From Chthonomonadaceae bacterium (GTDB taxonomy: Bacteria; Armatimonadota; Chthonomonadetes; Chthonomonadales; Chthonomonadaceae), in assembly GCA_025352825.1 (NCBI GenBank), contig JANXSG010000153.1, positions 1 to 48,541 of the forward strand: a stretch of 48,541 nucleotides of DNA, written 5' to 3'. Positions 24,791-28,893 of this stretch are shown here, in pieces. The position numbers were made by a program, and so were the translations under genes. The notes below the pieces were generated by a model, which searched no databases, had not been told where the DNA came from, and saw only the letters and a list, made by a program, of their open reading frames with translations. The number at the start of each line of letters is the position of its first letter. Position 1 is the stretch's first letter.

Positions 24791-25759
24791 CTATACATCT
24801 TCGCGCAAATCTTGGAATAGTATGGTGGATAAGTAACGCTCAGCATTTGATGGTACGATAACGACAATGAGTTTACCCGCGTTCTCGGCTCGCTTGCCGA
24901 CTTGAATGGCGGCAAAAACTGCTCCGCCAGAAGAGATCCCAATGGCGATACCCTCCTCTTTCATTACTCGCCGTGCCATCGCTATAGATTCGTCATTAGT
25001 CACCTGGAACACCTCATCCACGTCAGAAATATCTAGTATGTCGGGAATGAACCCGGCTCCAATTCCCTGTATTTTATGGGGGCCAGATTGCAGCGGTTGT
25101 CCGGCTTTGAATAGGGTGATTACTGGGGAATGAGTCGGTTCTACTCCCACGGTACGGAAGGATGGTTTTCGAGCCTTAATTACATCTGCCACTCCGGTGA
25201 TGGTTCCCCCAGTACCAATTCCTGACACAAGAATATCTACTGTACCATCCGTATCATTCCAAATCTCCTCCGCGGTGGTCCTGCGATGAATCTCGGGATT
25301 GGCAGGGTTCTTGAATTGTTGTGGCATATAGGAGTTATCAGGATCGTTCGCGATAATCTCTTCTGCTGCTGCTATAGCTCCCTTCATTCCCTTAGCGCCC
25401 TCAGTCAGGACAAGTTCTGCTCCATATCCTTTAAGCAGCAGGCGGCGCTCCATGCTCATTGTCTCAGGCATACAGAGAATAAGTCGATATCCCTTTGCCG
25501 CGCACGTGAAGGCTAGCGCAATTCCTGTATTTCCAGAGGTTGGTTCCACGATTGTGGTTTTACCAGGAGTAATTAGTCCTGCTTTTTCAGCAGACTCGAT
25601 CATGTAAACACCGATTCGGTCTTTAACGGAGAGCCCCGGGTTCAAGTATTCCAGTTTAAGAACAATATTTGCCACAACTCCTTCTGCCCGGGCAATTCGG
25701 CCTAACCGAACGAGGGGAGTATTCCCAATTAATTCTGTTGGATTATTAAATATGCGCAA
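24791..25759 (-). CDS. cysK: Cysteine synthase A (O-acetylserine sulfhydrylase)
   Basis: A 322-residue fold-type II PLP enzyme. Pyridoxal phosphate binds Lys46 in [10 protein letters not shown]. The substrate loop is [13 protein letters not shown], the phosphate-binding loop is [11 protein letters not shown], and [10 protein letters not shown] is near the C-terminus. It replaces the acetate of O-acetylserine by sulfide. The ORF extends upstream to an ATG at 25792 without ribosome site. AGGAGA lies six bases before a TTG at 25759, which also gives the standard N-terminus ([18 protein letters not shown]). An out-of-frame ATG lies between them. No cysE is adjacent. Confidence 0.93.
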
Positions 25760-25885
25760 TTCATTTCTCCTATTTTTATTCAATACATTCACGAAGTGTT
25801 ACTCACAAATGTAGATGAGATATCATGTAATCATTCTGACCTTTAAGTATGTTCGGACGATGTTATACTATTACTGAGCAGCATG

Positions 25886-26215
25886 AAAGAATCCTGTACA
25901 TAGAATAAAAATCCAATCAACTATATGTCATGCACAGGACTATTCCCAATATGCTTACAAACGGCAGTGTGTCACCTGGAACTGATCTTTGGTCCACCAT
26001 GAAACGGAGTGATTACTGTTCAAGTGGAGTTTATGCGTGAGAGCCGCGGAGGTATCATTACTCTCGAAATGTTGAAAACGATTGACAGGAATGATCGCAG
26101 GCTATATTACAAATCTGGATTTATGTTTACAACGTCAGCTTTACCATCTGGCGTCTTACAACTTGTTATGGTACAATTATCATGATAAAGTACATGAATG
26201 CAGACGAGGTCGTGT
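25886..26215 (-). pseudogene. Decayed second tmRNA-like sequence
   Basis: The interval between cysK and the Rpn-type gene contains no protein gene but aligns to the real tmRNA gene at a constant offset of 1400 bp. From 25925 to about 26060, against 27325 to 27460, I count about 85 identities in 136 positions without a gap, including an exact 11-mer TGTCACCTGGA and GAGTGATT. Weaker similarity extends to AAACATAAA of the tag region and to CGACCT near the 5' end. The 3' acceptor, T-arm and CCA are missing, and the tag frame reads NINPDL then stop, so it should not function as tmRNA. The 5' limit overlaps the ribosome site of the Rpn-type gene. The ends given are approximate. Confidence 0.6.
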
Positions 26216-27172
26216 ATGCCTTTTGATCAGCTTTTCAAAGAACTGCTCCACGCCTTCTTTCGTGAGTTTGTGGAACTGTTCTATCCCGATATTGGTGCTC
26301 GGTTAGACTTTAATCGAGTAACATTTTTAGATAAGGAACTTTTTACCGATTTACCCGAAGGCAGCCAACGTGAACCAGACGTTGTCGCACAGGTCTATAC
26401 ATTGGAAGGCGAGCCAGAACTGATCCTATTGCACGTCGAAGTTCAGTCTAAACGAGAACGTGAATTCTCGTATCGAATGTTCGAGTATTACGCTCTACTC
26501 TGGCTGAGGTATAAGATACCAATTTTCCCGGTAGTTCTCTACCTGACTCCCGGAGCAGGCGGACTGACCGAAGAACAGTACACCACTCGACTGTTTGAGC
26601 GAGATATCCTGACATTCCAGTACGCTGTCATTGGACTCCCGGACTTATCCGCAGACGAATATCTGAATTCGGATAACCCGCTTGGAACAGGTTTGAGTGC
26701 AATGATGCAGCCGAGTAAATTGGGTAAGTTCGCTCAGAAATATCGTACACTACTTCAGTTGACTGCTAGTCCGATTGATTCATCGCGAAAATCTCTGCTG
26801 GCTTTTCTAGTTGAAACCAACTTGCATTTAAGCAAATTGGACGAAGAAGAATTTAATCTTTTGAGGTCACAAGCAGACGGTAAGGAGGCAAATACAATGG
26901 TAGATATCGAAGAACTTTTTCGTGAGCACTATAAAAGTATTTACGAAGCAAGGGGTGTTGAACAAGGCATTGAACAGGGTATTGAACAAGGCATACAGCA
27001 GGGACTCGTTCAGGGAGAGCGTCGAGTTTTACTGAAACAGATGAGCCAAAAGTTTGGAGAGCTTCCAGACCTCATTACAACCAAGGTAGATGCAATTAAC
27101 TCAGAAGTTGAACTCGATTTGCTTGCAAATCGCATCCTAATCGCGAAGACTTTAGAAGAGCTAGAATTGTGA
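26216..27172 (+). CDS. Rpn-family PD-(D/E)XK nuclease/transposase-like protein
   Basis: A 318-residue protein beginning MPFDQLFKELLHAFFREFVE. The nuclease-type core is QREPDVVAQVYTLEG followed by LILLHVEVQSKREREFSYRM, which supplies the D...ExQ/K residues of the PD-(D/E)XK fold. The pattern is that of the Rpn (recombination-promoting nuclease) and DUF4351-type proteins. Near residue 250 lies a short repeat GIEQGIEQGIQQG, typical of this group, followed by a helical C-terminus. Rpn proteins cleave DNA and are often mobile or multi-copy. The start is the ATG at 26216 with GAGGT six bases upstream; the ORF could begin 18 bases earlier. The gene lies between the tmRNA gene and its decayed copy. 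Confidence 0.82.
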   Translation: MPFDQLFKELLHAFFREFVELFYPDIGARLDFNRVTFLDKELFTDLPEGSQREPDVVAQVYTLEGEPELILLHVEVQSKREREFSYRMFEYYALLWLRYKIPIFPVVLYLTPGAGGLTEEQYTTRLFERDILTFQYAVIGLPDLSADEYLNSDNPLGTGLSAMMQPSKLGKFAQKYRTLLQLTASPIDSSRKSLLAFLVETNLHLSKLDEEEFNLLRSQADGKEANTMVDIEELFREHYKSIYEARGVEQGIEQGIEQGIQQGLVQGERRVLLKQMSQKFGELPDLITTKVDAINSEVELDLLANRILIAKTLEELEL

Positions 27173-27234: not shown

Positions 27235-27273
27235 AAAAGAGTTCGTATCACGATCTGTGACACGAACTCTTTT
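27235..27273. terminator. Intrinsic terminator shared by ssrA and the Rpn-type gene
   Basis: A 17-bp stem, AAAAGAGTTCGT... at 27235-27251 against 27257-27273, with one non-Watson-Crick pair and a five-base loop. On the minus strand the stem ends in CTCTTTTTC, six bases beyond the tmRNA 3' end; on the plus strand it ends in CTCTTTT, 62 bases after the Rpn-type stop. Confidence 0.8.
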
Positions 27274-27278
27274 GAATT

Positions 27279-27634
27279 TGGTGGAGGTGAGGAGACTCGA
27301 ACTCCTGTTCCCAGCAACGTGCTTATGGCATCTACGAGCGTAGTCCCAGTATGTTTATTCGCTGCCGTCTGTCACCTGGACCAGACTAACGGCTCACTAG
27401 GTCGCCGAGTGATTCCCGCTCAGGCGGCGATCAAGCCTGAGTGTCGGTAAGTTGGCATAAGTTACGCCCGAACTCTTCTCGGCCAACAGGAGAAGGGCAG
27501 ACGCGCAGCCCTTAGGCTGCGAGCGCGTACGATTGAGTGTTCGCGTTTATGTTTTTTGCCGCTTTTTACGAGGCCCACGGCGCCTCGGCCCGCATCCAGA
27601 AACATCATCCACCAGGTCGACACCAATCACCCCC
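27279..27634 (-). ncRNA. ssrA: Transfer-messenger RNA (tmRNA)
   Basis: A 356-nt tmRNA that rescues stalled ribosomes with SmpB. The 5' end GGGGGTG pairs with CACCTCC before A-CCA at the 3' end, with the G3-U70 wobble that makes it an alanyl-tRNA substrate. The T-arm reads GAGTTCGAGTCTC. The tag frame encodes A-AKNINANTQSYALAA and a stop, and ends in the usual ALAA degradation signal. It begins near GTAAAAAGCGGCAAAAAAC, with GCG or GCA as the resume codon. CCA is encoded. A consensus promoter lies upstream and a stem-loop terminator six bases downstream. A decayed copy of this gene lies 1400 bp away. Confidence 0.96.
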
Positions 27635-27720: not shown

Positions 27721-28893
27721 CTAGTTATTCTTTCTGCGCAAAAACGATGGAATGTCCAGATCATCATCTGCAGATTTTTTAGGAGGCACAGGAGCAGACA
27801 CCGCTATCGAAGCTGGCTCAAAGACTGCCGGCTTAACCTCAGCCGCGATAGGCTGCGCGACCACTGCGGTGGCAGGAGTCGAGTTATGACCATTCAAAAT
27901 AGAGGATGCAGTCAATTCGGGAGTTGAATTACTGAATCCGGTAGCTAGAACTGTAACTCGAACTTCACCTTCCAGATTAGAATCGGGCACCCACCCAAGA
28001 ATGATATTCGCATCTTTCTGATCGCAAAGCGCATGAATCTGCTGCGCTGCTTCATTGAATTCAGAGAGAGTAAGATCGTTTCCAGATGTTACGTTTACCA
28101 GTACCCTGGTTGCTCCTGCTATGCTTGTCTCCAAAAGTTGAGAAGAGATTGCGTTATTGGCGGCGTCAATTGCCCGATTTTCACCCGTGGCGGTTCCAAT
28201 TCCCATCAGCGCCGATCCTGCATGAGACATGATCGCTCGCACATCTGCGAAATCTACGTTGATCATGCCTGGAATGGTTATGATATCGGATATACCCTGC
28301 ACACCCTGGCGCAGAATATCGTCTGCCATTCGGAATGCTTCTACCAGCGTAATACGGCGATCACCTACAGAGAGAAGTTTCTCATTTGGGACAATAATGA
28401 TGGTGTCGACATATTTCTTTAACTGTGCGATACCTTCATCCGCAAGCCGCATTCGTCTTGGCCCTTCGAATGGGAAAGGCTTGGTGACTACGGCTACGGT
28501 TAGCGCTCCTAATTCTCCAGCAATTTCTGCGATGATTGGCGCTGAACCTGTGCCGGTTCCTCCGCCCATCCCAGCCGTTATAAAAACCATGTCGGCGCCT
28601 TCTAAAGCTCGTTTGATCTCACTTCTGCTCTCTTCAGCTGCACTTTTGCCAATGGAAGGATCGCCTCCGGCGCCTAGTCCGCGGGTCGAATTTTCTCCCA
28701 GCTGGAGTTTTCGATCCGCTTTTGATACATTAAGCACCTGGATATCCGTATTCATGGCGTAAAACTCAACACCAGCCAATCCCGCATCGATCATTCGGTT
28801 GACGGCATTGCTTCCTCCGCCACCGGTTCCGATTACTTTTATTCTTGCAGTGCCCAGAGCGGGCATATTTCTATTCATTTTGCTTTCATTCAT
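27721..28893 (-). CDS. ftsZ: Cell division GTPase FtsZ
   Basis: A 390-residue tubulin homologue that forms the Z ring. The GTP-binding signature [20 protein letters not shown] is present, as are the N-terminal [18 protein letters not shown] and the T7 loop [11 protein letters not shown] needed for GTP hydrolysis. A linker of about 60 residues rich in Ala/Pro/Val follows. The C-terminal peptide [14 protein letters not shown] is the contact for FtsA. It is the last gene of the dcw cluster, 46 bp after ftsA, with an AAAGGTG ribosome site. Three in-frame ATGs occur in the first ten codons; the first fits the ribosome site best. Confidence 0.97.

Follow-up and report, generated by a model that had tools for sequence, protein, structure and literature searches.

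A decayed 3'-half copy of ssrA separated from the intact tmRNA gene by an rpn-type gene in a Chthonomonadaceae bacterium

Introduction

The locus described here raises the question of why a stretch of non-coding DNA next to a cysK-like gene resembles the tmRNA gene, ssrA, that lies beyond an intervening rpn-type gene, and by what route it came to be there. Bacterial genomes are known to contain tmRNA pseudogenes that lack an end, as well as fragments left by the integration of islands (PMC4131195). The signature of an island is a gene, its cargo and a fragment of the 3' half of the gene on the same strand, and Islander rejects candidates that lack an integrase, that have an interval of <2 kb or whose fragment falls short of the 3' end of the gene (PMC4383910). 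Our analysis of the whole 48,541-nt stretch (the window), which corresponds to the entire contig C135 of a 298-contig assembly, indicates that the sequence is a genuine, lineage-specific partial copy of ssrA and a scar of an already known kind.

Results

Organization of the ssrA locus

The dcw cell-division cluster, with ftsA-ftsZ at its end, is followed by ssrA, the rpn-type gene, a non-coding gap and the cysK-like gene (24791-25792, minus strand; TIGR01139, 442.8 bits). The functional ssrA gene (27279-27634, minus strand) encodes a one-piece tmRNA that is identified by ARAGORN and matches Rfam RF00023 over its full length (1-374, 139.6 bits); ARAGORN predicts the tag ANTQSYALAA and an encoded CCA. 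A comparison with the 3' ends of the relatives' genes (L041, L047 and L039) suggests that this CCA (27279-27281) is apparently absent in several members of the same family (G005, G013, G001 and others). Between the rpn stop codon and the 3' end of ssrA lies a near-perfect inverted repeat of 17 nt with T runs on both strands (27235-27273), which is probably a bidirectional terminator shared by these two convergent genes.

At the sampled loci of the family, ssrA adjoins neither ftsZ nor cysK. The cysK gene of the window is a divergent second copy with a long branch in the tree; the one that groups with the cysK of the family is found on another contig (G000:C284:8944-9861, L131). The genome also encodes two FtsZ proteins that are 69% identical (27721-28893 and G000:C150:6037-7104, L130), and the 16 kb around the second ftsZ gene contains no relative of any other window protein. 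The other members of the family have one FtsZ each at the threshold used, and among the named genomes of the collection the closest FtsZ relatives are those of Chthonomonas-like Armatimonadota.

The gap contains a partial copy of ssrA

Within the gap, positions 25925-26060 (minus strand) align without gaps with 27325-27460, i.e. with tmRNA nt 175-310, comprising PK3, PK4 and the start of the 3' strand. A first reading made from the sequence alone had noted an agreement of about 85 of 136 positions at an offset of 1400, and we reproduced this count exactly (85/136), with only 24-38 identities at the 20 neighbouring offsets. The pairwise comparison with shuffled sequence proposed in the same reading gave a gapped local score of 336 versus a maximum of 240 among 1000 dinucleotide shuffles, a score of 68.0 versus a maximum of 26.5 among 2000 such shuffles under a second scoring scheme, and 65 identities in the best ungapped 100-nt stretch versus at most 48 in 300 shuffles. 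Since the real values lie above those of every shuffle and the agreement is peculiar to offset 1400, the similarity is real, and chance similarity can be discarded as its source. The gap thus contains sequence with significant homology to the genome's own ssrA, as expected of an ssrA pseudogene or fragment.

The recognizable part of the gene is smaller than had been proposed. The sequence-only reading described a near full-length relic spanning 25886-26215, but only tmRNA nt 175-310, and perhaps 121-326, can be discerned. Binned identity is at chance level outside ~25921-26060, and anchored extensions do not rise above shuffled sequence on either the 3' side (32/100 shuffles equally good) or the 5' side (12/100). 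The largest plausible extent of the copy, 25912-26106 on the minus strand (tmRNA ~121-326), comes from a gapped alignment whose extensions are individually non-significant and which requires the acceptance of two 4-nt deletions and one 3-nt deletion. None of the offsets that we tried recovers the 5' part of ssrA. The 5' end, the tag region, the T arm, the acceptor and the CCA could not be detected in the copy, and its 3' side offers only a gapped T-arm-like match with a local p of 0.17. The match previously noted in the tag region (AAACATAAA) scores like shuffled sequence (p ~0.5), and the stretch around CGACCT, taken as a trace of the 5' end, yields no significant alignment. A full-length relic can therefore be set aside, since the 5' 174 nt and the 3' 46 nt show no homology at any offset tested. 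The fall of identity to chance beyond ~25921-26060, together with the non-significant extensions, defines the relic as a 3'-half fragment consisting mainly of PK3-PK4.

The copy has lost the structure of a tmRNA

The evidence bears out the proposal of a second, decayed copy of ssrA sequence, and structural and model tests both indicate that it is non-functional. The copy keeps 14 of the 27 base pairs that the tmRNA forms here, against 14.3 +/- 2.5 expected after 51 random substitutions and 19-23 kept by relatives even with a rough alignment. PK3 and PK4, whose helices a functional tmRNA maintains, have broken main stems. A search with the Rfam tmRNA models had been suggested as a means of finding at least a weak match around the copy, but cmscan over 25750-26300 gave no hit to RF00023 even at E<=10; a match to the covariance model that includes the tRNA-like domain, the tag ORF and the pseudoknots, as expected of a functional tmRNA, is thus lacking. 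Changes from the functional gene to the copy are biased towards AT (24 GC->AT versus 12 AT->GC), and its GC content has fallen from 55% to 46%, which brings it nearer to that of the flanking non-coding stretches (33-36%). With both gene ends and the structural constraint gone, 25925-26060 is a neutrally decaying pseudogene fragment.

One might object that the register is gap-free across 136 nt and that the inner stem of PK4 (CCAG/CUGG) survives with a single G-U pair, as would be expected of a second tmRNA-like or regulatory RNA in which PK3-PK4 is retained. Given the broken main stems, a pair retention equal to the neutral expectation and the lack of any tmRNA model match, we regard a functional RNA of this type as very improbable. 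At such an identity, a longest uninterrupted match of 11 nt is likewise unremarkable and is expected by chance (P 0.22). A core with 51 substitutions and zero indels is mildly unusual for a bacterial pseudogene, which is too weak an argument for constraint, and it would be surprising if function, for example as an attachment site or as a pseudoknot-derived small RNA serving the adjoining rpn-type gene, had kept the copy in register.

The copy derives from the genome's own ssrA

The best partner of the copy is the ssrA gene of the same genome (z 9.1), compared to a z of 2.8 for G005 and of -0.9 to 2.3 for 19 other genomes. At sites that distinguish the window gene from that of G005, the nearest relative, the copy shows the state of its own genome in 22 cases and that of G005 in 5; for G013 the corresponding numbers are 25 and 8. 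The two copies also have in common an extra base in the PK4 region relative to other genomes. These shared states make it most likely that the copy and the functional gene parted only once genus g6 had split off. They are derived relative to the closest relatives, and for this reason a foreign ssrA is disfavoured as the source, contrary to the suggestion that a mobile element had brought an ssrA gene of its own.

We scanned 37 ssrA loci, i.e. that of the window and 36 from relatives outside the source genus, with flanks of up to ~6 kb, and a convincing nearby copy was present only in the window (z 20.5); the intermediate copies in relatives that the sequence-only reading had hoped for were not found among these 36 loci. 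L017 appeared at first sight to carry a similar relic (z 5.4), but this value was equalled by 3/300 dinucleotide shuffles and was counted as noise. L010 has a 32-nt inverted match to the 5' end of ssrA (z 4.9). A search of the relatives' genomes with the copy returned no credible match (best E 2.7e-4 over 31 nt, in G017), nor did a search of a plasmid collection with the copy or of a phage collection with ssrA return any match.

The intervening gene resembles rpnL

The gene between the two copies (26198-27172, plus strand, with a likely start at 26198 or 26219) would encode an RpnL protein. Residues 1-92 match TIGR01784 (E 1e-7, 32.1 bits, under the curated cutoff of 52.1) and residues 260-316 give a weak DUF4351 match (E 9e-4, also under the cutoff); DUF4351 is the name of some separately encoded RpnS proteins (PMC10327210). 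A predicted in-frame internal start, with AAGGAGG 8 nt upstream of the ATG, would yield an RpnS-like product of 91 aa (26897-27172, plus strand), and the ATG at 26897 is followed by 12-nt repeats encoding four-residue units GIEQGIEQGIQQG. The gene thus resembles the nested RpnL/RpnS toxin-antitoxin genes with anti-phage activity (PMC10327210) in its Rpn-like N-terminus and weakly DUF4351-like C-terminus, and in its internal Shine-Dalgarno sequence and ATG and its four-residue repeats, a likeness that is one of sequence, with family matches below the curated cutoffs. These features suggest an RpnS antitoxin nested within the rpn-type gene, which is itself a probable anti-phage gene. Paralogues, some of them broken, occur elsewhere in the genome; those on contigs C297 and C230 share 72% and 59-80% aa identity with it, and the one on C230 has a similar internal GGAGG-ATG. 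Nucleotide similarity to the paralogues starts at the start of the ORF, and thus no common ends of a mobile element are seen.

Discussion

Our results argue that 25925-26060 is a non-functional 3'-half remnant of the genome's own ssrA, and we consider it likely that its presence is associated with an insertion downstream of that gene. This is the best explanation of the homology, extent, orientation, lineage-specificity and loss of structure observed here; that an insertion took place, and how, we infer from them. The 3'-half copy would have arisen once the nearest sampled relatives had branched off, with a DNA segment carrying the rpn-type gene entering at ssrA. Either an ssrA-targeting element would have restored the gene and displaced its former 3' portion, or two copies would have resulted from a partial duplication and rpn would then have been inserted between them; the machinery for integration, along with the outer portion of the fragment, may have been lost afterwards.

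The first of these routes supposes that a tyrosine-integrase island entered the 3' half of ssrA, that 25925-26060 is the displaced host fragment and that the intervening 1.2 kb is what remains of the island. The order and orientation are right, with an intact ssrA, cargo and a same-strand 3'-half fragment downstream; rpn genes are carried along as hitch-hikers on mobile elements and are concentrated in defence islands (PMC10327210), and no tRNA type is as enriched a target as ssrA (PMC4383910). The 1.4 kb tract nevertheless contains no integrase, only the rpn-type gene between the copies, and the interval is <2 kb. Moreover, the fragment appears to be internal: it does not reach the 3' end of the gene, the terminal 46 nt expected in an integration fragment being undetectable, and the 3' part of the functional gene bears no foreign signs (identity to G005 is 76% in the core versus 84% in the 5' part). 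We therefore view an integrative-element scar as a serious candidate that falls somewhat short of being probable. It is on account of the missing integrase, the short tract and the incomplete 3' end that partial duplication followed by rpn insertion is nearly as likely. Here, ~140-200 bp of ssrA would have been duplicated in tandem, rpn would have inserted independently between the copies and the distal copy would have drifted. This tentative scenario fits the shared recent descent of the two copies and the confinement of the offset-1400 homology to ssrA. Nothing but ssrA sequence is repeated at this offset and the window contains a single rpn, so the rpn tract lies outside the duplicated unit, and tandem duplication of a 1400-bp unit is ruled out. 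The scenario calls for two independent events, however, and there is no direct evidence for either junction.

Duplication of the whole gene, the main proposal of the earlier reading, would require that both ends have decayed past recognition. Between the core and the start of the rpn-type gene there is about enough room for the 5' part that is missing, but at a uniform identity of 62% the missing 174 + 46 nt should still show, whereas they are at chance ungapped identity at every offset tested and the 5' half behaves like shuffled sequence. We consider this origin unlikely.

Returning to the 3'-half remnant, its resemblance to island-made tmRNA fragments (PMC4131195, PMC4383910) lies in its being a partial copy in the same orientation downstream of the gene, with inserted DNA in between. 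It differs from them in that its tract has no integrase and a very short interval, and in that the copy is detectably internal (nt 175-310) and heavily decayed. Like the tmRNA pseudogenes missing an end (PMC4131195), it is a duplicate, without ends or function, that coexists with an intact ssrA in the same genome; unlike them, it lacks both ends and is too diverged for tmRNA finders. As an ordinary genomic scar, it leaves the general understanding of ssrA unaffected. It does show that ssrA scars can be recognised at ~62% identity, below the reporting level of standard tmRNA finders, and, in a phylum that branches deeply and has been little studied, it adds a further case of DNA entering at ssrA and leaving a partial copy of the gene behind.
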